Origin: a virus
DNA: 26,162 bases
Strand: one strand, 5' to 3'
Virus record (IMG/VR): IMGVR_UViG_3300043409_001737
Span: 1-26,162 of that record
Shown: one piece after another, positions 560-26,094 of the stretch
Layout of the letters: each line of letters begins with the position of its first letter
How positions within the stretch are numbered: the stretch's first letter is position 1
The notes under the pieces: generated by a model
The model's input: only the letters and a program-made list of their open reading frames with translations
Told to the model about the DNA's origin: nothing
Database searches by the model: none
Made by a program: the position numbers and the translations under genes

Positions 560-1069
560 ATGAAAATTATAATTAAAGAGAGTCAGTTAAAGAGGTTGAT
601 GAATGAGATAGGTGGGTATGACGATGCAGAACTTATGGGTCAACATGCTGGAGAGATACAATCTAAGTTATTAATTATATTTACTGAAACTACTAATATA
701 TTAGCTGATTTTTTAAATGAAGCAAGTGAAGGTAATCTTACTAAAGAAAATTATTTATCATTTACTCAAAATATGACATATAAAGTAGAAAACGACTTAC
801 AGATAATAGATTCATTAATTGACGAGATATATATTGATGTCGATTACAAAGAATCAATTCTAAACTATAGAAAAGCTTTACAAATGTTTCAAAATAAGTT
901 AAGATTAATATATAATGATGGTTTAGGATTAGGACTAGATATGACTAAAAATGAATTATCTCAAATAATAATGGAAGAAATAGATATGTTGAGTACTTTA
1001 ATGGAACCATTAGCTATTTTATTCCAACAAATTCATAGTAGGTTTAGAAACAGACTAGGATTTAATTAA
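560..1069 (+). CDS. Unknown protein with N-terminal ESQ tag module
   Basis: A 169-residue protein. The open frame extends to an ATG at 512, but I chose 560 because it follows the ATATTTAT motif and because the protein then begins MKIIIKESQLKRLMNE, the same N-terminal module seen on several other proteins here. The rest is predicted to be mainly helical, with Leu/Ile heptad-like spacing and acidic patches; I recognise no family. The module ends in M-N-E before Ile-Gly-Gly, resembling the L/I-x-E sites cut by T4-type prohead proteases. It is the first gene of a rightward block. A virion internal protein is plausible by inference only. Confidence 0.8.
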   Translation: MKIIIKESQLKRLMNEIGGYDDAELMGQHAGEIQSKLLIIFTETTNILADFLNEASEGNLTKENYLSFTQNMTYKVENDLQIIDSLIDEIYIDVDYKESILNYRKALQMFQNKLRLIYNDGLGLGLDMTKNELSQIIMEEIDMLSTLMEPLAILFQQIHSRFRNRLGFN

Positions 1070-1095: not shown

Positions 1096-1290
1096 ATGCA
1101 TAACGATCAAAAAGCACAAATGTATCACACCCTATTACTAACTCACGATAAATTAGATGGGCAAATTGCGGACATCAAATCAGAAGCTGCGGGAATGGAA
1201 TTAAATAAAGATCAAAAAAATAAATTATCCTTATTGGAGGCTCAGAAAGCGGATGTAGTTGAGAAGGCTAAGAAACTTTTTAATGTTTAA
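1096..1290 (+). CDS. Small helical coiled-coil protein
   Basis: A 64-residue protein, highly charged (many Lys, Asp, Glu) and with no Pro, so it likely forms one or two long helices. It contains repeated Leu-x-x-Leu-x-x-x-Gln type spacing (LSLLEAQKADVV). It lies 26 bases after the preceding gene and its end overlaps the start of the next by 8 bases, so all three are probably translated from one message. No family recognised. It does not carry the N-terminal tag module. Confidence 0.7.
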   Translation: MHNDQKAQMYHTLLLTHDKLDGQIADIKSEAAGMELNKDQKNKLSLLEAQKADVVEKAKKLFNV

Positions 1291-1765
1291 TTTAAAAAAA
1301 AATATTAAATTAATTTTAAAAGAAGAAGAAAATTTTCTTCACAATAGAGGTGCTAACGCCATATTACGGTTAAGACATCAAAATATATATAATTACGTAT
1401 TAGAAAGATATGGTGAAGAGTGGATGGAGGAAAATGAGTGGCCAGGATCTTTTGATACGTTTATATATAGGATAAAAAACGGATTTCCTGACACAAACTC
1501 ATCAATAGAGTTTGCTAGAATTTGTAACCCAGATGAAAATCCTTTAGTAGAGGGTACAGGTGTAGAATATTGTCTTAAAATTGTTACTAATTACATATTA
1601 AATTATGGGTCGGATAAGAAACACCATTACGATGTAATTAAAACAGATGAAATAGGTAAAAGTAAATTATATGATACCCTAAAAGGAATTTCTCTATCCG
1701 ATATTCCAAAGATTTTCGGTATAGGGGGAAATTATTATATTATCAAAAACGACTTACTTAACTAA
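1283..1765 (+). CDS. Unknown protein with divergent N-terminal tag
   Basis: A 160-residue protein. The frame is open from 1259, but ATG 1283 is preferred: it overlaps the previous stop by 8 bases, and the product begins with MFNLKKNIKLILKEEEN, a degenerate version of the N-terminal module with an L-K-E site. The body is of mixed composition with several Trp and Tyr in the first half (EEWMEENEWPGSFDTFIYR). No domain recognised. Its 3' end overlaps the stop of the leftward HNH gene by 12 bases (convergent genes). Confidence 0.7.
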   Translation: MFNLKKNIKLILKEEENFLHNRGANAILRLRHQNIYNYVLERYGEEWMEENEWPGSFDTFIYRIKNGFPDTNSSIEFARICNPDENPLVEGTGVEYCLKIVTNYILNYGSDKKHHYDVIKTDEIGKSKLYDTLKGISLSDIPKIFGIGGNYYIIKNDLLN

Positions 1766-2204: not shown

Positions 2205-3059
2205 ATGCGTATAATTATAACGGAAACACAACTTAATAGAGTGTTATTAAATGAAACGAAACAAGAGGTTATAACTGATGAATACCTAAATAAGGCAGTT
2301 AGTGTGGTTAAAAAATTAATTTCTAGAGGGTTTAGTATAGATAAATCTTGTGCAATAGCAGGTAATATGTGGGCAGAATCACAATTTGATGCAGCAATAG
2401 AAAGCTCTAATGGGGCAATAGGATTAATGCAGTGGTTAGGTGACAGAAAAAGGGCATTAATTAACTTTGCAACACATAAAGAATCTAAATGGTCTAATGA
2501 AAATACACAATTAGATTTTATAAAACTAGAATTAGTAGATGGGTACAAATTAAGTAATGGTAAACATATACCTAATTTACCTAAAGATATAAAATCTTCC
2601 GATGAATATGAAGTTAATAACTTTAATTCAGCTATGAAAGCGGATACAATACAAAAAAAGGCAGTTAAATTTGCGGAATTAGTAGAAAGATGTGGTGGTT
2701 GTGGTGGTACTATTGATATAAGGAAGTTATCTGCAAAAAGAATTCATGATTATATAGCAGGTACTTATGTACCCACAAATAAAAAAGAAACTAAACCAGT
2801 AGAAAAAAAACAAAGTAGTGGTTCTAATAAAATAGGTACTATAGTATCCCCTAAAAAAAATGGTGATGGTTATGTAAATGTTAGAGTAAAAGCTAATAGA
2901 GATAGTGAGAGAATTGTTAAGATATCATCTCCCAGTAAAATTGGTAAGGTTACAGAAGAAAAAACTGATGGTGACGGAAATAAATGGTATAAGATTACTT
3001 TGGATAAAAAAGTAGGTGATTATACAAGCGGATGGGTTAGATCCGATATGGTAGAATAA
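2205..3059 (+). CDS. Phage tail-type lysozyme with N-terminal tag and SH3-like C-terminus
   Basis: A 284-residue predicted peptidoglycan hydrolase. Residues 1-17 are the shared N-terminal module (MRIIITETQLNRVLLNE). Residues about 27-175 fit the phage tail-lysozyme family (Phage_lysozyme2): AIAGNMWAESQFDAA with likely catalytic Glu58, then GAIGLMQWLGDRK and a TQLDFIKLEL helix. A Lys/Ser-rich linker (190-209) leads to an SH3b-like domain (211-284; YVNVRVKAN, then WYKI and SGWVRSDMV) likely to bind the cell wall. There is no signal peptide or holin nearby, so it is more likely carried in the virion than used as the main lysis enzyme. The tag may be cut after LLNE during head maturation; that is inference. 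Confidence 0.85.
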   Translation: MRIIITETQLNRVLLNETKQEVITDEYLNKAVSVVKKLISRGFSIDKSCAIAGNMWAESQFDAAIESSNGAIGLMQWLGDRKRALINFATHKESKWSNENTQLDFIKLELVDGYKLSNGKHIPNLPKDIKSSDEYEVNNFNSAMKADTIQKKAVKFAELVERCGGCGGTIDIRKLSAKRIHDYIAGTYVPTNKKETKPVEKKQSSGSNKIGTIVSPKKNGDGYVNVRVKANRDSERIVKISSPSKIGKVTEEKTDGDGNKWYKITLDKKVGDYTSGWVRSDMVE

Positions 3060-3101: not shown

Positions 3102-4730
3102 ATGAAAATAATAATTAAAGAAAGTCAATATAAAGTTCTATTAAGAGAAGATAGAGTTCAATTTTTGAAAACACAGAATGTTATTGATCCTAAGATGTTG
3201 GATGCATCGGTAGAGGGGTCTGACGAAAAGGATGATGTTAGAAAACCAGGAGGTATGGATCCTAACAAACCTACAATTGAACCGATTGAGGATCATAACG
3301 GTATTGATATTGCATACTTAGTAAAAAGTAAAAAAGGGAAACAATCAGTTAAGTTAAGTGAAGAAATTTTTAACGATATTGTGGAAGCGGACCCATCACC
3401 AAATAAACAATATGTCCAATGGATGATTCAAGTATTTATGAGACATATTAATGAGGGAGATAATGAACAAGCAATTAGATTTTTAAGTGAAGATTTACCT
3501 GAGGCTAATGAATTTTTAACCGTATTTGATTCAGTTAAAAATAAAAAAGTATTTAAAAGATCTGCGCCTAATAGACCTAACGCACCACAAGACGTTACAA
3601 ATATCAATCAATATAATGATTTAGCTCATTTATATTCGGTAGTGAGTCCATTTATAGGGACAGAAGACGATGAGGAAGGTGAAGAAGGTGAAAGTAAGTT
3701 ATGGAAAAAATTAAAAAAATATGTTGACTTAGGTGAAGCTAAATTAGTATATAGAGATAATGATGTATTAATTTATACACCGTTAACAATAGAATCTAGT
3801 TGTGATCCTTTAGGACCACTGGCATCATGGTGTACTAGGAGGGAAGGTAATACTTATTTCGATTCTTATAGGAGAAATAACCCAAAACCTGATGGTAGTT
3901 TATCCGATTACTATGTGATAATGCCAAAAAAATTATTCGATGGGGATGACGAGGGTGGTTTATACCCACTACAATTTCATTTTGAGTCTAACCAAATACA
4001 TGATAAAGGTAATTCTTCTATCGAAAGATCAGGAAAATTAACACAAGTACTTGATAGATTTTCAGGAATGAAAACATTCTTCCAAAAAGAACTAGGTAAA
4101 CTAGTTGAGATGGACATTAGAAAGGGTACTGGTTTAATGGATAGTCATTATATTAAGTATTTAAATATGTTTGGTGGAAAAGTTCAGGATCATGTTAGTG
4201 GTGAAGCGTATAGTGAAGGTGTTGTAAACATTAAAAAATTAGCGTCTCAAACAACTGGACCATTACAATCTAACAAATACTTACAATGGTTAATGCAAAA
4301 TACTGAGGGGGTAATTATTACAGATTATTTAGATACTGAAAATACTAAAGCTTTAGATTTTTCTAATCTATCGTTGAAGAGGTTACCAGATTTATCTAAA
4401 TTTTCTTCTTTAGAAAGAATTACCGCTAATAGTTGTGGTTTAGAATCCTTACCACCAATCAATCATTTACCTATTGATAGTAAATTAAATGTTATCATTG
4501 CTAAAGATAATAACATTAAAGAAGCTCCTCTAACTGGATACGAAAAATTGACAGACTTATTCTTATTGAATTTGTCTAACAACCCAATTAAAAAATTCAA
4601 TAAAGATATTGCAATAGAAATGTTTGGTAATGGGTTGGTGATGTTAACTATCGATCAAGATAAATTAGATGGACAGAGTGCAAAAGATTTTTTAGAATTT
4701 ACGGAAATGACTAAAGATGGTTTACTATAA
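3102..4730 (+). CDS. Tagged protein with WCT-motif domain and leucine-rich repeats
   Basis: A 542-residue protein in four parts. Residues 1-16 (MKIIIKESQYKVLLRE) are the shared N-terminal tag. Residues 80-200 are helical with an acidic loop (EDDEEGEEGE). Residues about 210-335 hold a domain with ASWCTRREGNTYFDSY, DYYVIMPKKLF and PLQFHFESNQIHD; I know this WCT...LYxI...Q.H.E..Q..D pattern from other phage proteins but know no proven activity for it. Residues about 417-500 are leucine-rich repeats (LDFSNLSLKRLPDL, LFLLNLSNNPIKKF), a protein-binding fold. Cys and His residues in the WCT domain could be catalytic or structural. The layout (tag, putative enzymatic domain, binding repeats) would suit an injected effector, but that is speculation. 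Confidence 0.8.
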   Translation: MKIIIKESQYKVLLREDRVQFLKTQNVIDPKMLDASVEGSDEKDDVRKPGGMDPNKPTIEPIEDHNGIDIAYLVKSKKGKQSVKLSEEIFNDIVEADPSPNKQYVQWMIQVFMRHINEGDNEQAIRFLSEDLPEANEFLTVFDSVKNKKVFKRSAPNRPNAPQDVTNINQYNDLAHLYSVVSPFIGTEDDEEGEEGESKLWKKLKKYVDLGEAKLVYRDNDVLIYTPLTIESSCDPLGPLASWCTRREGNTYFDSYRRNNPKPDGSLSDYYVIMPKKLFDGDDEGGLYPLQFHFESNQIHDKGNSSIERSGKLTQVLDRFSGMKTFFQKELGKLVEMDIRKGTGLMDSHYIKYLNMFGGKVQDHVSGEAYSEGVVNIKKLASQTTGPLQSNKYLQWLMQNTEGVIITDYLDTENTKALDFSNLSLKRLPDLSKFSSLERITANSCGLESLPPINHLPIDSKLNVIIAKDNNIKEAPLTGYEKLTDLFLLNLSNNPIKKFNKDIAIEMFGNGLVMLTIDQDKLDGQSAKDFLEFTEMTKDGLL

Positions 4731-4767: not shown

Positions 4768-4920
4768 ATGGAAAGAAGTAAAAAAACAATTAGATTAACT
4801 GAATCAGAAATGGTTAATCTTATAGAGACTATTGTTAATGAAGTTAAAAGAGAAAAAATAAATCAAATCTCAGAATCTAGAAAATTTTCAGGGAGAAGAA
4901 CTAATAGAAGAAGTTACTAA
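4768..4920 (+). CDS. 50-residue protein made almost entirely of the tag module
   Basis: ATG at 4768, TAA at 4918-4920. The first 25 residues contain TIRLTESEMVNLIETIVNE, the long RLTES form of the N-terminal module that I recall from other environmental phage proteins. Residues 30-50 are Arg/Ser/Lys-rich (SGRRTNRRSY). The gene sits 37 bases after the LRR protein and 5 bases before the next start, so it is part of the same message. A tag fused only to a basic tail resembles T4 internal proteins, small basic proteins packed in the head; that comparison is inference. A second I-S-E site occurs near residue 36. Confidence 0.7.
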   Translation: MERSKKTIRLTESEMVNLIETIVNEVKREKINQISESRKFSGRRTNRRSY

Positions 4921-4925
4921 GATTT

Positions 4926-6296
4926 ATGAAAAAAAATTTACCAATAACTTTAAATGAAGAAATTAATAGGATAAAAAGACTTATGGAATTTACCATAAGT
5001 GAAAATTCACATGATGTTTTATCTGAACAAGGTACCAAAGGATGGAAATTGGGTTTGAAATTTTGGCCTAATTCAAAAGGTTTTGGGTCAGGTGGATTCA
5101 CTTTTAATACAAGTAAAGGTAGAAGTAGACACTGGGGTGTTCAAATTGGTAAAGAAGGTAGTCAAGTTGTTGATGAGAAGGGTTATAAAGGTAAGATTGA
5201 GACTGACCCATTAGATGATGAGTTGACAGGATGGAAAGAATTTTTGACTACAGATGGTAATATGGTTAAAAGAATGTCATCAACAAGTAAGGGTAATTGG
5301 CAAACTTTAAAAGATGATCCTGAACATATTGGGTACGCGGTTTATTCATTAGAAGAATTTAATAGGACGTTTGACGAATATAAATGGCAATATGTATTCT
5401 GTAATACTGAAGACGGTATTATACAGGAATTAAAAGATTTACCTAAACCACCTGATGAAGATAAAGTACCAAGTAATTTTAACTCAGTTAGTTTACCTAT
5501 AGAGTTTCCTGTTAATGGTCCGTCAAATACATTTTTTGAGGACAATAAATGGGTACCTACACAAGCATTCTCAGATAGTTTAGAACAAGAGGTTTTATCA
5601 CCACTAAGAGAAATTAAAGCAGGTTTAAATGTACCAGAAGGAGAACCTACATTTTTCTTAGAGGAATTAGAAATAATAACATCTTGTTCTAGATTCAGAA
5701 ATACTGGAGATGCCAAAGATTTAACATTTAAAAAATTATCGGAAAATAGGAATAATGCTGCAAAAGATTTTATTTATAGTAAACTTAAAGAAATAGGTGT
5801 ACTAATAGATAGTGAAACAAGTATATCACAAAATTCTGATGGTGAAAATGGTGATGGTTCATCAGGACCAAATACACCTAGTGGGTTATTTGTTGCAACG
5901 GATGGAAAAGAATCAACTGCATTACCACCTAATTCCTCAAAATCAAATGATGAAAGAGACAAATACGGTTCCCCTTTAAAAGATAAGACATCATATGATG
6001 ATTATAAATATTGTATTGCAGGAATGTCAATTTTGGCAAATACTAAATATCAAAAACCTGATCCAAAAGAAGGTAGTGAAGAAGATGATGGATCAAAAAT
6101 GGAAGTAGTAACCATTGACATACCGACAAAAGAATATAATGTTAGTTTTTACAGTAAACCAAAATATATTGGGATTTCTTTCAGATTACCTGAAATAATT
6201 GTAAGATGGAATAAAAGAAATAAAAGACACAGGAAATTTAAATTATTTAAAAGTAAAAAGAAGAAATTACGTACAACGAAGTGTATGAAATGGTAA
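4926..6296 (+). CDS. Tagged protein with OmpA-like peptidoglycan-binding region
   Basis: A 456-residue protein that starts 5 bases after the previous stop. The N-terminus (ITLNEEINRIKRLMEF) is another version of the tag seen in phages, followed by a V-L-S-E site at residues 31-34. Residues about 185-293 resemble an OmpA C-terminal domain: PIEFPVNG strand, IITSCSRFRNTGD in place of the usual GHTD-x-x-G loop, then KLSENRNNAAKDFI matching the LSERRAxAVxxYL helix. Asp/Arg ligand positions are only partly kept, so wall binding is uncertain. Residues 305-345 are a Gly/Ser/Asn-rich linker, and the last 30 residues are strongly basic (RNKRHRKFKLFKSKKKK), possibly binding nucleic acid. It ends the block just before a terminator. 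Confidence 0.6.
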   Translation: MKKNLPITLNEEINRIKRLMEFTISENSHDVLSEQGTKGWKLGLKFWPNSKGFGSGGFTFNTSKGRSRHWGVQIGKEGSQVVDEKGYKGKIETDPLDDELTGWKEFLTTDGNMVKRMSSTSKGNWQTLKDDPEHIGYAVYSLEEFNRTFDEYKWQYVFCNTEDGIIQELKDLPKPPDEDKVPSNFNSVSLPIEFPVNGPSNTFFEDNKWVPTQAFSDSLEQEVLSPLREIKAGLNVPEGEPTFFLEELEIITSCSRFRNTGDAKDLTFKKLSENRNNAAKDFIYSKLKEIGVLIDSETSISQNSDGENGDGSSGPNTPSGLFVATDGKESTALPPNSSKSNDERDKYGSPLKDKTSYDDYKYCIAGMSILANTKYQKPDPKEGSEEDDGSKMEVVTIDIPTKEYNVSFYSKPKYIGISFRLPEIIVRWNKRNKRHRKFKLFKSKKKKLRTTKCMKW

Positions 6297-10759: not shown

Positions 10760-11056
10760 ATGGTATTATTAAAACACGAAGAAGACGATTTTATTGAGTG
10801 TCTGTACGATTCCTCTAATGTTTTGGGGTCAAAATTCTTAAAAAAAGAAAAAAAATTAGCGGTTATTTTTAAATCAGGAACTCAGTATGTTTATAACAAT
10901 GTGACAAATGAGGATTATAGACAATTTGAGTCTAGTGATAGTCAGGGTAAATTACTTAATACAGTAATTAAAAAATATACTTTTGAGAAATCTAAAAATA
11001 TTATAGACGTTACACCAATGTTAGAACAAATAAATGTTATTAAAAATACTATATGA
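10760..11056 (+). CDS. KTSC-domain protein
   Basis: 98 residues. About residues 17-75 fit the KTSC domain: [32 protein letters not shown], then [20 protein letters not shown] (the S-x-G-K-x-x-N end). KTSC proteins are common in phages and bacteria, sometimes linked to lysyl-tRNA synthetase in other proteins; the molecular role is not established. Its end overlaps the start of the thymidylate synthase gene by 4 bases (ATGA), showing tight translational coupling. Confidence 0.8.
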
Positions 11057-11712
11057 ACACATTAGATAAACAATACACAGACTTACTTCAAGATATCCTA
11101 GATAACGGAGTAACTAAGCAAGATCGTACTGGAACTGGTACACTATCAGTATTTGGTAGACAAATCAGACATAAGATGTCAGATGGATTTCCTTTACTTA
11201 CAACAAAGAAGATAACATTTAAAACAATTGTAACAGAATTGTTATGGTTTCTACGTGGTGATACAAACATTAAGTACCTTGTCGATAATAATTGTCATAT
11301 TTGGGATGGTGATTGCTTTTCTAATTATGTTAGAAACTTTACTAAATATGTAGACTCTTTACCTGAACATAGTGAAACAGAATTTATTATCGATAAGGAT
11401 AAATTCATTGAAAAGATTAAAACCGATGATGAGTTTGCTGATAAGTGGGGTGATTTAGGTCCAATTTATGGTAAACAATGGAGAGCGTTTGGTGGTTATA
11501 ATAAAGTTCCATCTGGATGGGATCATGGTTCAATAACCCATTTCAAAGAAGTACCTAAACATGACCAAATCGCAAACCTAATCAACGACTTAAAAACAAA
11601 TCCAGACTCAAGACGTATAATGGTTAATGCTTGGAACGTTGCTGATTTACCTGTTACTGATTATAGGACCGATGATGAACTTTATCAAGATTATTTAAAG
11701 AATTTTGAGTAG
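11053..11712 (+). CDS. thyA: Thymidylate synthase, N-terminal half
   Basis: 219 residues; residues 1-200 match ThyA up to just before the active-site loop. Visible: [16 protein letters not shown] (phosphate-binding Arg), [38 protein letters not shown] and [17 protein letters not shown] with the Arg pair that reaches across the dimer. The family then continues with (K)M-x-LPPCH; here it departs at Val201 into an unrelated tail (about [19 protein letters not shown]) and stops. The catalytic Cys half is encoded separately at 12525-13187. ThyA makes dTMP from dUMP with methylene-tetrahydrofolate. Alone this half cannot be active; it would need to assemble with the C-terminal product. Confidence 0.92.
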
Positions 11713-11713
11713 A

Positions 11714-12118
11714 ATGAAAATAAAAATACCTTTATATGATATTAAAATTAAAATTTATTTTGATTATGATTTGAACAAACCTATTAATAAAATAAAGAAA
11801 AATCATAATAAGAAAAAACTTTATAGAATAAATGAAATTGATTTTGATGGTGTTGTTATTGGGGAGTTTATCCCAAAAAATAAAATAATTTATGTATTAA
11901 TCAAGAAAACTAAAAAAGGTATTAATGTGGATACATTAACTCACGAAATATATCATTTAACAACCAAAATAATGAAATACAATAACTTTAAATTTAATAA
12001 AACAGATGAACCTTTTGCGATGTTAAACGGTAAATTAAATTCAATGATTATAGGTAAATTAATTAAAAATGGTGATAAATTATATTACCCAACAAGTAAA
12101 AAAATAAAAATAAAATAA
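11714..12118 (+). CDS. Predicted zinc metallopeptidase (HExxH)
   Basis: 134 residues starting at the ATG one base after the thyA N-half stop; a TTG at 11705 is in frame but would overlap that gene. Residues 73-81 read DTLTHEIYH, giving a HExxH zinc site, and TDEPFAML (97-104) supplies the usual downstream Glu ligand. This His-Glu plus D/E-x-x-A pattern is seen in small phage proteins annotated as putative metallopeptidases. The N-terminal 60 residues are Lys/Ile-rich. Substrate unknown. It is the first of three small genes lying between the two thymidylate synthase halves. Confidence 0.65.
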   Translation: MKIKIPLYDIKIKIYFDYDLNKPINKIKKNHNKKKLYRINEIDFDGVVIGEFIPKNKIIYVLIKKTKKGINVDTLTHEIYHLTTKIMKYNNFKFNKTDEPFAMLNGKLNSMIIGKLIKNGDKLYYPTSKKIKIK

Positions 12119-12122
12119 ATTT

Positions 12123-12323
12123 ATGAAAAAATCAGAACAAATTGAAGAAATTGGAACTGCAATTAGTGAGTGTTTGAATAAGTTGTATGAAACTAAAGAA
12201 CCGTTATCATTTAACCCATTTCCTAAGATGTATCATCCAACAGATGATTCTATAAATATACCATTGATTGTTGACGGTAAAAAAATAATTATTGAAATAA
12301 AATCATCAAATTATGATTATTGA
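12123..12323 (+). CDS. Small unknown protein
   Basis: 66 residues: a helical acidic N-terminus (EQIEEIGTAISECLNKLYE), a Pro-rich middle (SFNPFPKMYHP) and a C-terminal beta hairpin (PLIVDGKKIIIEIKSS). No family recognised. It starts 4 bases after the peptidase stop and overlaps the next gene by 11 bases. Confidence 0.65.
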   Translation: MKKSEQIEEIGTAISECLNKLYETKEPLSFNPFPKMYHPTDDSINIPLIVDGKKIIIEIKSSNYDY

Positions 12324-12528
12324 TGTTAACACTTTTATCCCATCATTTGGTGATTTTATAGTTTATTCTAAGGAAAGTGATATTGAAGAAAATTTATTCA
12401 AAGAGATATTTTTTGAATTTTTAAACAATCCAAAAAAATACAATAATCCAGAAATAATAAAAACGTATTTGAATGAGAAATTACCAATAAATTCTTATAT
12501 TCAAATAATAAATAGACTTAAATTATGA
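12313..12528 (+). CDS. Small unknown protein
   Basis: 71 residues, acidic in the first half, with a helical segment ENLFKEIFFEFLNNPKKY. No family recognised. It overlaps the gene before by 11 bases and the thymidylate synthase C-half by 4 bases (ATGA). This tight chaining argues that the C-half is translated as its own ORF rather than joined by splicing. Confidence 0.65.
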   Translation: MIIDVNTFIPSFGDFIVYSKESDIEENLFKEIFFEFLNNPKKYNNPEIIKTYLNEKLPINSYIQIINRLKL

Positions 12529-15501: not shown

Positions 15502-17211
15502 ATGGGAAAATACGTAAATCCAAAAACATTAAAAGGTCAAGACAAACTAAATAGAATGTTAGACCTTATGGGTAAAATGAATACTTTAAATGAAAGTAAA
15601 TCATTTTCTGAATTAGAATTAATAAAAAGAGGCCCAAATGGGATAGTATATGGTATAATTAGAGAAAATCATGATTACTTCATTAAAACATCTAATAAAC
15701 AATCAGGTAAATTTTTAGCTGAGAATTTTAGTTATATTGGTGGACTTCAAAATAAATACGATGAGAGATATCACTCATACTCTGAGGCATTAAAACAACT
15801 TAACCTTAAATTTGATATGTTAAATGAATCTTATGGTATTAAGAGAAATACTAACATATTTGAGTCAGATGGTAACGCAATTGCAGGTGGTGCTGGATTT
15901 GGTTTCGTATTAGAGGATGAAAAAGAAGAAATCATTTCTGATGAGGAAAAAAAAGTTATTAAGGTAGATGCACCTAAAAGTGAATCACCTGAGACTCCTG
16001 TTGAGGATGAGGTTGAGAACGAAGATCCTGAAGTTGATATGGGTGGAGATATTGCCGATGTGGATTTTGGTGATGAGGATGAGGAATCTGAAGATGAAGA
16101 AGGTGGTGATGATATCACAAAAAAAATACAGAAATTAACTGGTAAGATAGGTCAAATGTTAAGAGATAAAGAGGAAGTTGATCCTGAATTGGAGAAATAC
16201 GTTATTAACTCAATTATTTCTGCATTACATTTAGATGAAATGGATGAAAATGATAAAGAAGACATCATTTCAAAAATAGAAGGAGAAGAAGAATCTGAAG
16301 AGGGGGAAGAAGGAGAAGAACCTGCTGAAACAGAAGTAAGTCCAGAAACAGAAGAACCTGCTGAAACGGAGGCAAGTCCAGAAGGAGAAGAATTATCAGA
16401 AGAAGTGTCTAAATCTAAAAAACCTTTAGAGATTACACCTGATATGATTGCAATGTTATTGAAAAATGGTGAATGTAATTGTTCAGGACATAAATTAGTT
16501 TACAAACCAAAAGAAACTAAGAATGAAAGTAGAGTTTTCTCTAAAAAAAGAATTATGGAATCTTTTCTAACGGACGCAACTAAAAAGTCACTTAAAAAAG
16601 TTTTAAAAGAAAATAGACAAATTTGTGAAAATTGTATGGGTGCGGGTTGTGATAATTGTTCAGATGATAATTATGATAGAACTAACTATATGGTAGATGA
16701 AGAAAGATTTACTGATGGTAGAAAAAAGATAGATAGAGCAAAACCTTACGGTAAGATAACTTCTGCGGATTTTGAAGCATTAAGAAGTGGTAAAAAAACT
16801 GAGGGAAGAAGAGATAGAAGAAGAGGTATAATGGGTGAAGACGATATGACTATGATGGACGCAGTTCAGACAGGACAAGGATATTTACCAACAGGTGATT
16901 TAGATAGAGATTTTGATAGAATCCCTAATCGTTTAGATATGGATAATAATTCAGATGGTAATTTAGATTTTACTTCAAATTCCGACAGATTTAATAGGGG
17001 AAGAACTAATGACGATTTTATCGAATTAGATATCGATTTCTTAAGAAGTAATAATCCAGTTAAAAACCCAGAAATTGAAAAACCTATAACTAAACCAGGA
17101 ACAGGTACGGATTGGGATAGAATCAAAAGACCTAAAGTTATTCCTAAACCTAAGGCGATGGGAGACGAAATGGCAAAACCTTCATTTAGAAGAAGAGGAA
17201 TGTTTAGATAA
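15502..17211 (+). CDS. Large acidic protein with Cys cluster and Ca-binding-like repeat
   Basis: 569 residues in distinct zones. 1-110: Lys/Leu-rich, with T-L-N-E-S (28-32) and M-L-N-E-S (106-110) sites. 137-305: very acidic low complexity (DEDEESEDEEGGDD, EEGEEGEEPAETE). 375-386: CENCMGAGCDNC, a CxxC-x-G-x-GCxxC cluster like half of a DnaJ zinc finger; ECNCSGH at 324-330 adds more ligands. 465-492: DLDRDFDRIPNRLDMD then NNSDGNLDF, like a thrombospondin type-3 Ca-binding repeat. The C-terminus is basic (SFRRRGMFR). A strongly acidic protein near the head genes could be a prohead core/scaffold protein, as T4 gp22 is, but no sequence relation was seen. Its stop overlaps the next start (TAATG). 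Confidence 0.75.
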   Translation: MGKYVNPKTLKGQDKLNRMLDLMGKMNTLNESKSFSELELIKRGPNGIVYGIIRENHDYFIKTSNKQSGKFLAENFSYIGGLQNKYDERYHSYSEALKQLNLKFDMLNESYGIKRNTNIFESDGNAIAGGAGFGFVLEDEKEEIISDEEKKVIKVDAPKSESPETPVEDEVENEDPEVDMGGDIADVDFGDEDEESEDEEGGDDITKKIQKLTGKIGQMLRDKEEVDPELEKYVINSIISALHLDEMDENDKEDIISKIEGEEESEEGEEGEEPAETEVSPETEEPAETEASPEGEELSEEVSKSKKPLEITPDMIAMLLKNGECNCSGHKLVYKPKETKNESRVFSKKRIMESFLTDATKKSLKKVLKENRQICENCMGAGCDNCSDDNYDRTNYMVDEERFTDGRKKIDRAKPYGKITSADFEALRSGKKTEGRRDRRRGIMGEDDMTMMDAVQTGQGYLPTGDLDRDFDRIPNRLDMDNNSDGNLDFTSNSDRFNRGRTNDDFIELDIDFLRSNNPVKNPEIEKPITKPGTGTDWDRIKRPKVIPKPKAMGDEMAKPSFRRRGMFR

Positions 17212-17620: not shown

Positions 17621-18259
17621 ATGGGAAATAAAATTAAAATTTATGAATCAGAAATTAAAAGAGCGGTAAGACGTAAACTAATGGAAAGATTTGTTGATGA
17701 GGCAGAACAAATGACTGTTTATGATCAAGACGAATTTAATAAGTCTTTTGATAAATTAAAGGGTCCTTATGGTGTTAGAGGTGAGGATGGTAAAATACGT
17801 TCTGTAACTGTTAATGAAGAAGATGAGAGTGAAATAAATAATAAAAATATGTATATTTTAGATGGTTCTTTTACTATCATAAAAGTTGATAAAGAAAGTA
17901 GACCTTTTGGGAACTGGCAGACGGATAATTCTACATATTTTAAAGTAAATGCGGGAACACAACTTAACTCAATAACAAAAGGAACTGTTATAAAGATAGG
18001 TGGTAGTGACTCAACTGAAGGTAAATTTTATGGAAATTCTATTACGGTTGGGGGGGAAGAGGGATACCCAAATACTTTTTATGCACATATTAGTGACATT
18101 GAGGTTTCTGTAGGACAAAAAGTGGGATTAGGTACTCCGTTAGCTAAAGTGTCTGATTGGGACGATAACCCAAATTTAACCCATACTACGGTTAGTTTAA
18201 ATAACGGAGAAAAAATAAATTCACTTATTAATACCAATACAGGTAAAATTATTAGTTAA
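17621..18259 (+). CDS. Degenerate M23 (LytM-like) protein with N-terminal tag
   Basis: 212 residues. Residues 1-23 (KIKIYESEIKRAVRRKLME) are a variant tag ending in L-M-E. Residues about 105-205 follow the M23 peptidase fold: AGTQLNSITKGTVIKI, the small strand YGNSITVGG, FYAHISDIEVSVGQKVGLGT and LTHTTVSLNNG in the place of H-x-H-F-E. The zinc ligands look incomplete: the first motif (normally H-x3-D) reads STYFKVN, and the second His of H-x-H is Thr. So it is probably not an active endopeptidase; it may bind peptidoglycan or be structural, as inactive LytM domains are elsewhere. Start chosen 11 bases after the previous stop. Confidence 0.75.
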   Translation: MGNKIKIYESEIKRAVRRKLMERFVDEAEQMTVYDQDEFNKSFDKLKGPYGVRGEDGKIRSVTVNEEDESEINNKNMYILDGSFTIIKVDKESRPFGNWQTDNSTYFKVNAGTQLNSITKGTVIKIGGSDSTEGKFYGNSITVGGEEGYPNTFYAHISDIEVSVGQKVGLGTPLAKVSDWDDNPNLTHTTVSLNNGEKINSLINTNTGKIIS

Positions 18260-18261
18260 AT

Positions 18262-18936
18262 ATGAAAAAAATAGATATTATTAACGAAGTTTATAGTGAA
18301 AAACAAAGAAGATGGGCATGTGATCAAATGGATGCACCTAAATCTGAAAGAGAAATATCTAAAAAGGATGCTACTGAAATGTGTAAAGACGTTAAACAAT
18401 CTAAAAAGAAGAACGAAATTGTAAAACCTAAAATGAAAAAAAAGGACTTAGTAGAATACATTAACACTAAAATTTCTTTAAAAGAAAATGGTGAAGTTTT
18501 TATTGTAACTGAAATACCATCAGTAGATAAAAGAGAAATATTTAGATTCTTCGAACAGTTAAGACAAAGTGGTGTTATTAATATGTTTGGTTCGTCTCCA
18601 ATACTGAATTGGACAAAGGATGACTTACATAGATGGTTATATGGTATGGGTAAAGATCCTGAATCTATGGAATCTGAAATAGAAGAGTTAGAGGATGATA
18701 ACGAAGAGGGTGAAAATGATTCTGAAATAGAATTGTTACAAAGTCAATTAGAACCTATTAAGTATTTATTAGATAACAAAAATAATGTAAGAGATATTTT
18801 AGTTAGGGGTGCAATGACAAGATTAGAAAACAGAGGTGAAGAAGATCCTGATTTATCAAAAGTTCAGAGAGTTTTCGAATCTTTGGCTAAAGAATGTTTT
18901 AAAATGTGGACAACGGCATTATACGGAAATAGATAA
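18262..18936 (+). CDS. Unknown protein with SEKQRRWAC motif
   Basis: 224 residues. It begins MKKIDIINEVYSEKQRRWAC; the SEKQRRWACDQMDAP...SKKDATEMCKDV stretch (about 12-45) is a motif I recall from other phage proteins, with paired Cys (20, 41), function unknown. The centre (60-130) looks alpha/beta with DKREIFRFFEQLRQSG; 140-155 is acidic; the rest is helical. Starts 2 bases after the M23-like gene. I-I-N-E near the N-terminus resembles the tag of its neighbours. Confidence 0.7.
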   Translation: MKKIDIINEVYSEKQRRWACDQMDAPKSEREISKKDATEMCKDVKQSKKKNEIVKPKMKKKDLVEYINTKISLKENGEVFIVTEIPSVDKREIFRFFEQLRQSGVINMFGSSPILNWTKDDLHRWLYGMGKDPESMESEIEELEDDNEEGENDSEIELLQSQLEPIKYLLDNKNNVRDILVRGAMTRLENRGEEDPDLSKVQRVFESLAKECFKMWTTALYGNR

Positions 18937-18947
18937 AAATAAATATT

Positions 18948-20363
18948 ATGAAAAGAAAAAATATAATTAACGAAGTAACTAAAAGAGTTCTTTCTGAAAA
19001 AGTTAGAATTAAAAGAATAAGTGAGGCAGTAGAATACGATCCTGAACATCCAGAAAGAATGCACCCAGGATTAGAAAGAAGTCTTAGTAGTGGGGAACAT
19101 ATGTTCTCAAAAAGTAAATCTATACCTACAGGTTCTGGGTCACAAAACTATTCAGAAGCATTAGCAAGTAAAAGATTTAAGGAAATAGTTAATAAAGTTA
19201 AAAGGTATCATGGGGTAAGAAATATTACACCTAATATGTTACAAATGATGTTCCAAATAATGGGAGAAATCAGTCAAATTGAAACGAGACATAAAGAGGC
19301 TTTAGAAAGATTGGCAGTAGATATTGTATCAGAAGAGTTTGATATTCCTGAACAAATGTTGGAGGCTACTTTAACACCTCCAGGTTCTCCTTTGAGTCAC
19401 GAATCCGATGAAGAGGATGAAGATGATGAAACACCTCAAATGGAGATGCCTAAAAAACCAAAAAGTGCTCAAAGAATGGAGGAGCTGGAATTAGAGGTTG
19501 ACAAAAGAAAAGTTATAAATGCGTTAATGCAGGGAGCGGCTAAAAAAGGACACTATATATTCCATATGGTTGCCGATGAATTAGATGCATTGGATCCTAG
19601 ATTAATGGGGTTATATGGTAAATTAATGTCTTTAGCAGATTTCCAATATTGGGTGATACCTGATACAATGATGACTGGTCAAGTCGGTGGTGTTGAAAAA
19701 ATAGAATGGAGAAAGGCGGAAAAACCAGAAAATAAGGATGAAGAAGAAGATATGGAAGACATCAATATAGAAGAAGGAGATGATATGCCTGTTGTGGTTG
19801 CTAAGGCTTGGATTTTCCCACTATTAGTACATGAATTAATTAAAGGAGCTTTAGAATTATCCGCAATTAATTGGGCGGATGGTCATTTAGACTTTGATGA
19901 ACAAAAAGAAGTAATGTCTAAGGCGGATACAGATGAAGGTGAAATATGGGGTATGAGATTAGGACCTGGTATGTGGGAAAAATTCTTAGATTGCGTTGGT
20001 GATGAGAATTACGATATTAAACAATGGTTGTTTAGAGAATTAACTAAATTACCTGCACAACAATTTCATGATTTTATGAAAGAAATTTTATCAGGAAGTC
20101 AAAAATGTAAAGAAGTTATAGATACTTTAAAAGAATTACATAAAGAAGATAGTGGTGATAGTTTATCTGATATGTTTGATGAAACGGGTTATGATGATAT
20201 GGGAGACATTTTAGATAATTTAGGTGAAGAACCTGAAACTGAAGAAGAACCTTCTGAGGTTGACTATTCCAAAATGAGTAAAAGAGATATCGAAGAATTA
20301 ATTAATGACGCATTAGATTCAGGTGATTTTGACCTTGTAGAAAAATTACATAAATATATGTAA
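18948..20363 (+). CDS. Tagged, acidic virion-block protein
   Basis: 471 residues. The N-terminus (KNIINEVTKRVLSEKVRIKR then ISEAVE) holds two candidate protease sites, L-S-E and I-S-E before Ala, the latter very close to the T4 prohead-protease consensus. There are two acidic linkers (about 152-162 SDEEDEDDE and 258-280) and a conserved-looking core with FPLLVHELIKGALELSAINW (about 290-312), WGMRLGPGMWEKF and YDIKQWLFRELTKL. The C-terminus is acidic and helical. I know no function. Size, acidity and place before terminase suggest a head or neck component. Followed by a strong terminator. Confidence 0.75.
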   Translation: MKRKNIINEVTKRVLSEKVRIKRISEAVEYDPEHPERMHPGLERSLSSGEHMFSKSKSIPTGSGSQNYSEALASKRFKEIVNKVKRYHGVRNITPNMLQMMFQIMGEISQIETRHKEALERLAVDIVSEEFDIPEQMLEATLTPPGSPLSHESDEEDEDDETPQMEMPKKPKSAQRMEELELEVDKRKVINALMQGAAKKGHYIFHMVADELDALDPRLMGLYGKLMSLADFQYWVIPDTMMTGQVGGVEKIEWRKAEKPENKDEEEDMEDINIEEGDDMPVVVAKAWIFPLLVHELIKGALELSAINWADGHLDFDEQKEVMSKADTDEGEIWGMRLGPGMWEKFLDCVGDENYDIKQWLFRELTKLPAQQFHDFMKEILSGSQKCKEVIDTLKELHKEDSGDSLSDMFDETGYDDMGDILDNLGEEPETEEEPSEVDYSKMSKRDIEELINDALDSGDFDLVEKLHKYM

Positions 20364-20433: not shown

Positions 20434-21471
20434 ATGAAAAATATCATAAGAAAAATACTAAAAGAAAGTGCGGAACAACCCAAAAGACTTTTTAGGTACA
20501 TAGAACATTCTCTATCGACTTTTGATGATAACGTTGAAGAAGTTATTGAAGATTTAGAAGAAAATTTAAATTTAACTAAATTAGAATCTTATACTATATT
20601 ATTTGAATATTTTATACATATCGGAGTGGATCCATTAAAGATGACGGACTTTGATGATGTTAGTTATTATTTTGATGGTGAAGAATCAGTGAGTATTTTA
20701 ACAAATAGTGGTTGGTTAGATAAATATCTGAAGGATGGGAAAGCTTTTAGTAGAGATTTTAGGGACATAACTGAAGTTGGTGATGGTGAAAGGTTTTTAT
20801 TGAAATTAGACGATTGGGAGGAGTTTAGTTGTTTATTTGATGAACGCGACTTGCCTTCAAGAATACTACAACAAGATTCGGCAGATTTATATAGTTGGTT
20901 TGATGTGGATTATGAAAACGACATCGTAGATAATTTAGATGATAAATCAAAAAACCGTATACAAGAATACGTAAAAGAAAAGGGGTTTATCGGAAAACCT
21001 ATATCTGATAATCAATATAATATATCATTTGAGGGTGATGATACGATATTAACTGAGGAAATGGTTAATGATATAGATATATTATTAGAATTAATCGGAG
21101 AGGATGATTTGTTTTTTGATTTAAGAATTGAGTTAGAAAACGTATATAGATGGGCATATGAAAGTGCTGGTGAATCAGAAATTTTTAATAAATTAAGGTC
21201 AGAAATAGAAGGATTTTTTGGGAATAAACCTTACTGGGAAGATAATAAACTTTATTTAGATGTAACTACAGTATTTTATGATAGTTTAGTTAGATTTTTA
21301 CAATGTGAAAGTAAAATGCCTGGTAATGAGCATAATTATTTCTTAACTGTTGTTTGTGAAACTTTAGCTTGTGAAGGTGATGAATTAAAGAGTCCAGACA
21401 TGAATTATTTTTATCCCGATAGTAGAATAGTTGCTTCAGATTTTAATGAAAATGTTAGAGATAATATTTGA
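20434..21471 (+). CDS. Unknown acidic protein with short tag
   Basis: 345 residues. It begins MKNIIRKILKESAEQ, a short tag with an L-K-E site before Ser-Ala. The body is strongly acidic with many Asp, Tyr and Phe (SYYFDGEESVSILTNSGWLD, DWEEFSCLFDERDLPSR) and looks helical with repeated DD motifs. No family recognised. It ends 3 bases before the next tagged gene, so the two are co-translated. The high negative charge recalls DNA mimics, but no such family is identified. Confidence 0.7.
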   Translation: MKNIIRKILKESAEQPKRLFRYIEHSLSTFDDNVEEVIEDLEENLNLTKLESYTILFEYFIHIGVDPLKMTDFDDVSYYFDGEESVSILTNSGWLDKYLKDGKAFSRDFRDITEVGDGERFLLKLDDWEEFSCLFDERDLPSRILQQDSADLYSWFDVDYENDIVDNLDDKSKNRIQEYVKEKGFIGKPISDNQYNISFEGDDTILTEEMVNDIDILLELIGEDDLFFDLRIELENVYRWAYESAGESEIFNKLRSEIEGFFGNKPYWEDNKLYLDVTTVFYDSLVRFLQCESKMPGNEHNYFLTVVCETLACEGDELKSPDMNYFYPDSRIVASDFNENVRDNI

Positions 21472-21474
21472 TAT

Positions 21475-22326
21475 ATGAAAATAATTATAACCGAAAATCA
21501 ATATAGAAAACTATTATCTGAGAATAATGAAGATGTTATCGATGGATTCAAACAATTAGTAAAAAGGGGAAGGTTTGTACATCCAGATCATTTCTTTGAA
21601 TATTACTTTAGTGTATTTGGACATAATGATAATGATTCACTATCTGCGATAGAAAATGATGATGAATTATATGATATTTTTTTAGGAAAAATATTATCTG
21701 GGTATTTTATTAATTCATATTATAAGGGTATAAATAATATAATAAGTATTTTTGACTATGTTGTTGACAGACACTCTATTTTATTATTTAAAAATAGGAA
21801 GGATGTTATAAATAATTTTTATAAATTATTAAATTTAAAATTGAAACTACCCTACTGGTATAAAAATAATTTACTATATGAATTTATTGACGTTTCAGTT
21901 AATGATGTGGCAAAATTAATGTTTAATGAGTACCCACCAAAAGAGGCGATAAGACAATTATCAATCATAACTGATAAATTAGGTAAAAGATATAAAGAAA
22001 GGTTATTTCATGTCATTAAAAAACATGCGGAAGAAAATAATTTATTGTTGATACCAAAAGAGAAAGGATTCACTTTTAATAGGAGAGAAAATTCTATGGT
22101 TAGAGATGTAATTAATTACTTAAAAGATCCATCAGAAAAAATAAAAACAAAAACAGGTTTTTTAAGATATATTGGTTCACCTTTAGGTGGTGGACAACAT
22201 GCTACGTTTTGGAGTGCATTAATTAAGTCAGGTATTATAGAAAAAATAGGTTCAGGTAAAATCACCACCTATACTATTGGATCAAATTATGAAGAATGGG
22301 AAAAAGGTAATTTAGTTACTTTTTAA
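21475..22326 (+). CDS. Tagged protein with winged-helix-like C-terminus
   Basis: 283 residues. It opens with MKIIITENQYRKLLSEN, one of the clearest copies of the shared tag (L-S-E site at 14-16). The middle is Tyr/Phe/Ile-rich and helical. Residues about 205-275 (VRDVINYLKDPSEK, then GQHATFWSALIKSGIIEKIG and a KITTYTIG hairpin) look like a winged helix: three helices and a wing, as in DNA-binding proteins. If the tag directs packaging into the head, this could be a DNA-binding protein delivered with the genome; that is inference. Confidence 0.7.
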   Translation: MKIIITENQYRKLLSENNEDVIDGFKQLVKRGRFVHPDHFFEYYFSVFGHNDNDSLSAIENDDELYDIFLGKILSGYFINSYYKGINNIISIFDYVVDRHSILLFKNRKDVINNFYKLLNLKLKLPYWYKNNLLYEFIDVSVNDVAKLMFNEYPPKEAIRQLSIITDKLGKRYKERLFHVIKKHAEENNLLLIPKEKGFTFNRRENSMVRDVINYLKDPSEKIKTKTGFLRYIGSPLGGGQHATFWSALIKSGIIEKIGSGKITTYTIGSNYEEWEKGNLVTF

Positions 22327-24198: not shown

Positions 24199-26094
24199 AT
24201 GGCAAAAAAAACAATATTCCAACAATTAAGTAATTTATTTGGTCCAGAAGTAAAAAGAGAACAAAATAAATCAAGATATTCTATAAACGATAAAGAATTA
24301 TTGAGAACAAAATCAAAGGAGGAATACGACTTTGAGAAGTTAAAAAAACAACAAGATTCCTACCTTTCTAATATGTGGCAGAAGGTTGATAATGAGATTT
24401 ATCAACACTCAGTCTATTATGAAACTACAAGATTGGCATCCTATGCGGATTTTGAGGGTATGGAATTTTTTCCAGAGATTTCTGCAGCTTTAGATATTAT
24501 GATGGAAGAATCAACTACATTAAATTCAGAAAATAAAATGGTAACTATTTTTTCTGAAAGTAAAAGAGTAAGAAGAATATTAGAAGATTTATTTTTCAAT
24601 AGATTAGATATTCATACTTCTTTACCTATGTGGACTAGAAATACTTGCAAATATGGGGATAATTTTCTATTTCTTAATATAGATAGTGAAGAAGGTATTA
24701 TGGGTGTTAAACAATTACCAAATATTGAAATCGCAAGAAAAGAAAATGAAGGTTTTGGTGAAAACTCTATGAATATGGATACAGATAAATTTAATCCCGT
24801 TAAATTTGTTTGGGGTCAGAGAGATATAGAGTTCAATGCGTGGCAAGTTGCACATTTTAGGTTATTAGGTGATGATAGAAGATTACCTTATGGTACTTCT
24901 ATGTTAGAAAAGGCAAGACGTATTTGGAAACAATTATTATTATCTGAAGACGCTATGTTAATTTATAGAGTAACTAGAGCACCAGAGAGAAGAATATTTA
25001 AAATATATGTGGGTAACATCGATGAGCAGGATGTACCAGCTTACGTTAATAAAATTGCAAATAATTTTAAGAGGAGTGCAGTAATTGATCAAAAGACAGG
25101 ACAAATAGATACAAGATACAATCAGATGGCACAGGATCAGGATTATTTTATACCTGTTAGGGATGTAAATGCACCTAGTCCTATTGACACATTACCAGGA
25201 GCAACTAATTTATCTGAAATAGCGGATATCCAATACTTACAGAAAAAATTATTTACTGCATTGAGGGTACCTAAACCATTTTTAGGTTTTGAGGAGGTTA
25301 ATGGAGATGGAAAAAACTTAGCCCTACAAGATATTAGATTTGCTAGGACAATAAATAGGATACAACAATCAATGTTACAGGAGTTAAATAAAATTGCTAT
25401 CATACATTTATATATTTTAGGGTTAGAGGATGAGTTAGAAAACTTTACTTTAACGTTGAATAACCCCTCAACACAAGCAGAAATGCTTAAAGTGGAACAG
25501 ACTCAATTAAGAGTGACACTTTATAAAGATGCCGTATCAGATGCGGGTAATGGGTTTGGTGCAATGTCTATGACTAGAGCTAAAAAAGATATATTAGGTA
25601 TGTCTGAGGAAGAAATTAGAAATGATTTAGAACAACAGAGATTAGAAAAAGCTGCAGCTGCCGAAATGGAACAAACTGCAGAAGTTATAAAGAAAACAGG
25701 TATATTCGATAGAGTAGATAGATTATATGGTGATTTTGATGCATTAGTTGCGGGTGCAGGTGGTGGTGAAGCAGGTGGAGATGCGGCTGCTGGTGGTGAT
25801 GCTGGTGGGGCGGCACCTGAAATGGATGCTGGGGCGGCACCTGAAGCGGATGCTGGAGCGGCAGCACCTACAGAAGAGTCTATAAAGAAAAAAGAAAATT
25901 TAATATTAGAAATAAACGAGAAAAAATATAATGAAAAAATAAAAAAATATCAAGGGATGTACCTTAGAAAATTGACTGAAAGCTTAGATAAAAATGAAAA
26001 TATCTACAATTTAGATAAGTTTGAAGATGGTGCAGACATACTTAATTCTAAGATAAGTGAAATAACAAAACAAATAGATAGTATGATTGACTAA
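24199..26094 (+). CDS. Portal vertex protein (T4 gp20-like)
   Basis: 631 residues. It forms the dodecameric ring through which DNA enters the head. Recognisable T4-type portal segments: YYETTRLASYADFEGM and FFPEISAALDIMMEEST near 72-105, FNAWQVAHFRLLGDDRRLPY then GTSMLEKARRIWKQL (about 213-250), RAPERRIFKIYVGN (about 257-272), and RVPKPFLGFEE with LALQDIRFARTINRIQQSML (about 355-395), where the stem and crown helices lie. It is longer than T4 gp20 (524) because of a Gly/Ala/Asp low-complexity stretch (about 516-560) and a Lys-rich helical tail. That stretch is GC-rich and repetitive, unlike the rest of the gene. Placement just after terminase confirms the call. Confidence 0.95.
   Translation: MAKKTIFQQLSNLFGPEVKREQNKSRYSINDKELLRTKSKEEYDFEKLKKQQDSYLSNMWQKVDNEIYQHSVYYETTRLASYADFEGMEFFPEISAALDIMMEESTTLNSENKMVTIFSESKRVRRILEDLFFNRLDIHTSLPMWTRNTCKYGDNFLFLNIDSEEGIMGVKQLPNIEIARKENEGFGENSMNMDTDKFNPVKFVWGQRDIEFNAWQVAHFRLLGDDRRLPYGTSMLEKARRIWKQLLLSEDAMLIYRVTRAPERRIFKIYVGNIDEQDVPAYVNKIANNFKRSAVIDQKTGQIDTRYNQMAQDQDYFIPVRDVNAPSPIDTLPGATNLSEIADIQYLQKKLFTALRVPKPFLGFEEVNGDGKNLALQDIRFARTINRIQQSMLQELNKIAIIHLYILGLEDELENFTLTLNNPSTQAEMLKVEQTQLRVTLYKDAVSDAGNGFGAMSMTRAKKDILGMSEEEIRNDLEQQRLEKAAAAEMEQTAEVIKKTGIFDRVDRLYGDFDALVAGAGGGEAGGDAAAGGDAGGAAPEMDAGAAPEADAGAAAPTEESIKKKENLILEINEKKYNEKIKKYQGMYLRKLTESLDKNENIYNLDKFEDGADILNSKISEITKQIDSMID
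25747..25873 (+). repeat. GC-rich imperfect tandem repeat in portal gene
   Basis: Repeating units of about 24-27 bases around GATGCTGGGGCGGCACCTGA (starting 25798, 25825 and 25849), preceded by GGTGGT-type repeats. It codes for Gly-Gly-Asp-Ala and Ala-Ala-Pro-Glu runs. GC content is far above the surrounding sequence. Confidence 0.8.

Follow-up and report, generated by a model that had tools for sequence, protein, structure and literature searches.

Why does a small phage lysozyme begin with a short peptide that recurs on unrelated proteins, and where in the infection cycle would such an enzyme act? The question arises at a locus in a 26,162-base phage fragment from IMG/VR (the window), which ends just past a T4-type portal gene. 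A sequence-only reading had proposed that the enzyme and its neighbours carry a head-targeting tag, so that the lysozyme may be packaged in the head and sent in with the DNA, or that the tag directs it to another virion part. The tagged ORF itself stands as described: the frame at 2205-3059 is exact, Phage_lysozyme2 (PF18013) matches residues 31-183 far over its cut-off (76 bits against 28.2), which places the protein in this family, and residues 1-17, MRIIITETQLNRVLLNE, end in L-N-E and are followed by T. An AlphaFold model was built on a 13-sequence alignment, across which E58 of the lysozyme domain is invariant, and has a mean pLDDT of 82.3, with values below 50 at residues 1-18 and 193-207. 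The closest solved fold to the lysozyme part of the model is phi29 gp13 (Z 15.3 over 138 residues, rmsd 2.8), and a phmmer search of the lysozyme against solved structures gave no match at E 0.1. The C-terminal part matches bacterial SH3 domains, among them that of the phiSM101 endolysin (Z 9.1 over 66 residues, rmsd 2.1); the Pfam family SH3_3 (PF08239) matches residues 223-283 at 21 bits (E 3.7e-4), below its 27-bit cut-off. The suggestion that an SH3-like end would hold the enzyme at the wall is therefore backed by fold, and some enzymes of a second lineage, described below, have LysM-like repeats. Based on the Pfam domains, the AlphaFold model and the fold matches, the modelled chain runs from tag through enzyme and linker to SH3 (Table 1).

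No signal peptide is apparent, as had been claimed; the highest 15-residue Kyte-Doolittle mean is 0.99 among stretches starting at residues 1-60. Because canonical endolysins likewise have no signal peptide, this absence is no argument against a role in lysis, and its use is a weaker point of the earlier reading. Scanning the genome collection with the lysozyme gave two distant matches, L096 and L097, and the ORF that contains the former has no tag.

Table 1. Features of the window, followed by tagged wall-related genes of two relatives, G001 and G005; a slash marks the end of a tag or the predicted cut.
Feature	Position	Strand	Basis or remark
Tagged ORF, MKIIIKESQLKRLMNE/I	560..1069	+	no Pfam or PHROG match
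Untagged ORF	1096-1290		
Possibly tagged ORF, MFNLKKNIKLILKE/E	1283..1765	+	by eye
Tagged lysozyme	2205..3059	+	ORF, ATG start, 284 aa; PF18013 4.4e-21; structure model
N-terminal tag, residues 1-17	2205..2255	+	predicted cut after Glu17 (LNE/T); six-lysozyme conservation; low pLDDT
Lysozyme domain, residues 31-183	2295..2753	+	PF18013; Z 15.3 to phi29 gp13
SH3 fold, residues 211-284	2835..3056	+	Pfam 21 bits (cut-off 27); Z 9.1 over 66 residues
Tagged ORF, MKIIIKESQYKVLLRE/D	3102..4730	+	weak leucine-rich-repeat match, below cut-off
Tagged 50-aa ORF, TIRLTESEMVNLIETIVNE	4768..4920	+	tag match
Tagged ORF (form D), EEINRIKRLMEFTISE	4926..6296	+	tag match
ORF with possible site TLNE/S at residue 31	15502..17211	+	by eye
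Possibly tagged ORF (KLME/R), Peptidase_M23	17621..18259	+	PF01551 9.6e-10
Possibly tagged ORF, MKKIDIINE/V	18262..18936	+	by eye
Possibly tagged ORF, MKRKNIINE/V	18948..20363	+	by eye
Tagged ORF (form B), MKNIIRKILKE/S	20434..21471	+	tag match
Tagged ORF, MKIIITENQYRKLLSE/N	21475..22326	+	tag match
T4-type portal protein (gp20), head-module marker	24199..26094	+	Portal_T4 2.8e-79
Tagged PG_binding_1	G001 44777, G001 45793, G005 121564		Pfam
Tagged glucosaminidase-VanY-M23 fusion, 1006 residues	G005 39087-42107 (L082/L083)		domain matches
Tagged probable LysM	G005 118634		HMMER
Tagged amidase (Amidase_2), tag less typical	G005 26855		HMMER

Six lysozymes, the window's among them, share the tag, with the consensus MRIIITE[TA]QL[NK][RK]VLL[NFY]E/TKQ. 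Changes are limited to T/A, N/K, R/K and N/F/Y; the L and E of the ending are fixed and the residue between them varies. Between G002 and G005, codons 2-17 differ by 8 silent and 2 replacing changes, and codons 18-185 by 46 and 43. Some genome pairs are uninformative in this comparison of tag and body. For the window and G001, the tag shows 0 silent and 2 replacing changes and the body 23 and 10; for the window and G004, the figures are 2 and 2 for the tag, 37 and 44 for the body. According to one paper (PMC9026906), the T4 protease gp21 cleaves after L/I-x-E, and the internal proteins of T4 bear capsid targeting propeptides of 10-19 residues. The 17 residues here, like the ten of the second lineage, fall within that range and have the L/I-x-E end. 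The tag thus looks like a T4-type capsid targeting sequence, with a predicted cleavage site at E17/T18.

The neighbours are tagged as well, which bears out the earlier description: the ORFs at 560-1069, 3102-4730, 4768-4920 and 4926-6296 have tags, and the one at 1096-1290 is an exception. Regular expressions find the tag in 7 of the 34 window genes, and another five look tagged by eye. Among the latter, the M23 ORF has HTT as its second metal motif, for which reason its domain is perhaps inactive; genes matching it in G001 (97 aa), G002 (88 aa) and G005 are without the domain.

How far can such a short motif be trusted? In G001, counts at 174 N-termini were set against those in 1051 internal 30-mers: tag form B was found 13 times against 0, form D 7 against 0 and form A 13 against 9, with expressions for the three forms that were composed after the tags had been seen. 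A rule of simpler form, which asks for [LIVM][LI]xE with its last residue at position 6-24, was compared with 500 shuffles and with protein bodies. It selects 42 of 160 N-termini in G001 (shuffle maximum 24, body maximum 18), 27 of 116 in G002 (21 and 15) and 64 of 222 in G005 (30 and 27). The second-lineage genome G011 has no excess genome-wide (7 of 105; shuffle maximum 11, body maximum 13), its lysozyme block shows none under a strict rule (3 of 21, body maximum 5), and the cultured Flavobacterium phage immuto has 25 of 216 by the simpler rule (body maximum 23). With region borders that were set after the tags were seen, the excess is found in the stretch that precedes the head genes (28 of 76 in G001, body maximum 10; 30 of 72 in G005, body maximum 6) and between terminase and capsid genes (8 of 15 in G001, maximum 6; 6 of 16 in G005, maximum 4). 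G005 has a further excess at 17.6-38 kb (8 of 30, maximum 6) and at 38-80 kb (14 of 63, maximum 8); past the capsid gene, the remainder of G001 has the motif in 4 of 42 (maximum 5). Among 62 genes of T4 that served as a control, the strict rule picks six (vs.5, 2, 68, 21, 22 and 24), of which 21, 22, 24 and 68 are head genes, and misses IPI-III. A loose rule picks 21 of the 62, endolysin e among them, and a lone L-x-E was rejected as proof of a head tag on that account. The motif on its own is weak; the evidence is the repeated module.

This module is attached to otherwise unrelated proteins. We assembled 87 tagged proteins, picked by motif and by eye (10 from the window, 56 from G005, 21 from G001), and their bodies, after removal of the first 30 residues, group into 76 families at a threshold of E 1e-3. 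Pfam recognises PG_binding_1 in three of them and Glucosaminidase, Phage_lysozyme2, LysM, M23 and Amidase_2 in one each, so that 8 of the 87 are wall-acting or wall-binding; a thioredoxin-type, a DUF192 and a DnaJ-type domain occur once each, plus a few weak matches, and YusW and DUF5417 are represented as well. Untagged G005 proteins (72 and 67, after six of the 73 in the second half had been excluded beforehand as possibly tagged) served as controls, at a threshold of 1e-4 as against 1e-3 for the tagged set; all wall domains counted pass 1e-4. Among the control families listed (25 of 39 and 25 of 47, so that weaker wall families may be hidden), most concern replication, metabolism and head assembly, and the only wall families among these matches are PG_binding_1 and M23, once each. 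The former probably belongs to an untagged, amidase-like endolysin. An apparent untagged M23/VanY protein at L083:59-2104 was rejected, being the later part of the tagged fusion G005 39087-42107, which division into 20-kb pieces had split. In G001, a protein with GH19 and PG_binding domains has no tag. The likely endolysins of the relatives are thus separate, untagged proteins. Of the four annotated wall enzymes of immuto, three are untagged (a chitinase, which adjoins the holin, a lysozyme and a carboxypeptidase), and the fourth, a glucosaminidase, is ambiguous, with LLFE at residue 13 and then a hydrophobic stretch. These immuto enzymes count against packaging in the head.

A search with the enzyme domain only, without the tag, served as the main test of the N-terminus. 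Five of the 42 loci obtained carry the window-type tag (L036-L040, all of them known already); at fifteen (L041-L055, several of them near-identical) the lysozyme stands alone and has a different ten-residue tag that starts MI[RKQ]L..[LI]LxE and ends LLxE or ILxE, as in MIRLKSLLNE/. The remaining 22 have no such tag, and 14 of these loci encode proteins of 538-2057 aa. Alignment of seven of the fifteen second-lineage lysozymes gives 35-41% identity with the window protein. A joint alignment of both lineages shows no variation at L15, E17 or E58 and almost none at L14; the rest of the tag differs. Since the tags differ and the L15/E17 ending is kept, the alignment indicates that the same enzyme wears the own label of each lineage. 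The short tag, by a pattern defined after the tags were seen, is also present on neighbours, with 39 matches among 178 distinct proteins of 10 loci, many of them orthologs, against 28 of 2223 internal 12-mers. Some C-termini of this lineage have LysM-like repeats with or without an SH3 part, and some have neither. One contig has gp23 at its start, plus a contractile sheath. No S77 protease was found in the 15 second-lineage fragments, which weighs against packaging in the head. In a separate observation, the lysozyme-domain match in S-PM2 (AJ630128.1 151356-154859, L027) falls within a protein of some 1167 aa that is encoded close to baseplate genes, and an entry of that length in a viral structure library is named ADP-ribosyltransferase.

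Does the lineage of the window possess the machinery that such a tag requires? Three near relatives were found, at 91%, 80% and 90% (the last over part), and three further relatives at 61-68%. An S77 prohead protease is present in five of these six (3/3 near relatives, above cut-off, and 2/3 further ones), and the window ends before that locus; gp23 is present in 2/3 near relatives. Alignment places capsid-protein sites near residue 60 at LLNE/S in G001, LLSE/S in G002, LISE/A in Microcystis phage Mel-JY01 and IVSE/A in immuto, and by eye we assign LLNE/S in G005 and LVKE/A in G011; the T4 gp23 site, FLTE/A, ends at residue 65. The LLNE ending of the window lysozyme is identical to the predicted capsid-protein site of G001 and G005. 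The sites of immuto and G011 are V-x-E and not L/I-x-E, a point against the head. Mel-JY01 and immuto are the best portal matches among named phages (41% and 34%). Searches for sheath and tube genes in G001, G002 and G005, by Pfam and by BLAST with tail proteins annotated in immuto and Mel-JY01, recognised none, and among these three and G011 only G011 has homologs of those tail proteins. An earlier assignment of some G001 and G005 genes to the tail was dropped, there being no sheath or tube match and no tail-protein homolog. None of 10 minus-strand G001 proteins received a structural name from PHROGs, and the eight G001 and G005 proteins once taken as tail-side include no wall enzyme, seven of them being without any Pfam match.

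Taken together, the proposal of head packaging gains strong comparative support from the motif and its position, the S77 protease of relatives and their capsid-protein site, the two tag lineages and the untagged likely endolysins; the head location itself and cleavage before Thr18 are predictions. With moderate confidence, we favour a lysozyme that is packaged in the head, trimmed by the prohead protease, ejected with the DNA and active in the periplasm. As a capsid targeting sequence, the first 17 residues would bring the lysozyme into the prohead core. There, an S77/gp21-type prohead protease would cut after L-N-E (E17/T18) and free the enzyme inside the head, a step to which the motif, the relatives' protease and the site in the capsid protein all point. 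At infection, the enzyme would exit the head with the DNA and be released in the periplasm, where it may cut glycan strands while its SH3 end anchors it on the wall. The wall would then be opened locally for passage of the DNA. A broader possibility, which we put forward tentatively and rather doubt, is that an exchangeable N-terminal label loads dozens of unrelated proteins per genome, including a wall-acting kit of lysozyme, glucosaminidase-VanY-M23 fusion, amidase, LysM and PG-binding proteins, and that the head delivers to the periplasm too.

Known systems offer parallels for each part of this mechanism. Like the T4 capsid targeting sequence, the tag is a short N-terminal propeptide with an L/I-x-E end on otherwise different proteins, and the S77 protease adjoins the portal and capsid genes in the window's relatives. 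However, IPII and IPIII start MKTYQEFIAE, a different sequence from the window tag, and T4 has few internal proteins, bound for the cytoplasm, whereas many more are apparently tagged here, wall enzymes included. According to passages of PMC9026906, many internal proteins of T4 are ejected into the cytoplasm; a lysozyme would have no substrate there, which argues against delivery from the head. The working mode would instead be like that of the T7 transglycosylase gp16, combined with an address label of T4 type. As excerpts of PMC8954989 describe it, gp16 is an internal protein that the phage ejects and that cuts the wall, and here, too, a wall-cutting enzyme is proposed inside the head, leaving with the DNA. 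Unlike gp16, which has about 1300 aa and a DNA-ejection part, the window protein has 284 aa and consists of a separate tag, the lysozyme and the SH3 end only, so it is not a member of the gp16 family. A review (PMC6116005) notes that a virion lysin may be an inner protein of the capsid, ejected when the virus opens. The window lysozyme has the same fold as the tail-tip lysozyme gp13 of phi29, but gp13 and most PF18013 proteins that we encountered are tail proteins without such a tag. The cleavage motif of the giant phages SPN3US and phiKZ differs from the L/I-x-E type. These phages have many head-internal proteins, some of them trimmed after a short Glu-ending motif, and the portions consulted of two papers do not mention a packaged phage lysozyme (PMC9026906, PMC10052503). 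An overview of jumbo phages, in the part considered, puts wall enzymes at the tail (PMC7824862). Among the matches listed, titles and abstract openings, a corpus outside which most subscription papers and preprints lie, do not describe wall hydrolases as T4-type head cargo; a search with the tag peptides gave only unrelated titles, and one on immuto gave no title about this phage among the matches listed.

Could the enzyme ride in the head and yet serve something other than entry? Together with wall-binding cargo, it might remodel the wall later, against superinfecting phages or in priming lysis. Several tagged proteins are indeed wall-binding without a recognised catalytic domain, such as the PG_binding_1 proteins of G001 and G005 (Table 1), but the lysozyme is catalytic by its fold and keeps E58, and T7 gp16 sets a precedent for a role in entry; we regard later remodelling as unlikely. 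Delivery to another virion part, for example the tail, where this domain usually resides, is a thought that the domain itself invites, since many phages have it in their tail or tape-measure proteins. In the window's lineage the enzyme may still be a tail hydrolase, since the tail genes there are unrecognised, and the form D tag on two large minus-strand G001 genes of unassigned role weighs against the head as well. The motif, however, fits the specificity of a prohead protease and the capsid-protein site, and in the recognised tail module of G011 it is not enriched (3 of 23, body maximum 4). The earlier suggestion of another virion part is therefore disfavoured in the second lineage only, and overall we hold it to be distinctly unlikely.

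The enzyme could also be a second endolysin, acting from within, with an incidental N-terminus. It is a small standalone enzyme with a wall-binding end, and endolysins do not need a signal peptide. An incidental N-terminus is nevertheless hard to reconcile with two lineages that hold two different tags with the same ending, with a tag common to unrelated proteins and with separate untagged wall enzymes in relatives, which together make a second endolysin very improbable. If the favoured reading of a lysozyme delivered from the head is right, a phage whose head is of T4 type would use its head cargo to open the wall, in the manner of T7, and lists of such cargo could be read from sequence. The reading also raises the question of at what point of its path the cargo leaves. 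The two lineages, with one enzyme under different tags, offer a natural way of testing the requirements of a capsid targeting sequence. Both halves of this idea are known already; their combination and the scale seem to be new.

Further features were noted in the window. An Rfam search of it gave no match. A minus-strand ORF directly before the lysozyme (1754-2161) has, by eye, the look of an HNH-type endonuclease, and it recurs in G001 and G005. At 11053-13187, a thymidylate synthase gene is apparently split: homology to the intact G001 gene covers 11053-11649 and 12531-13184, and about 880 bases with small ORFs lie between the two halves.
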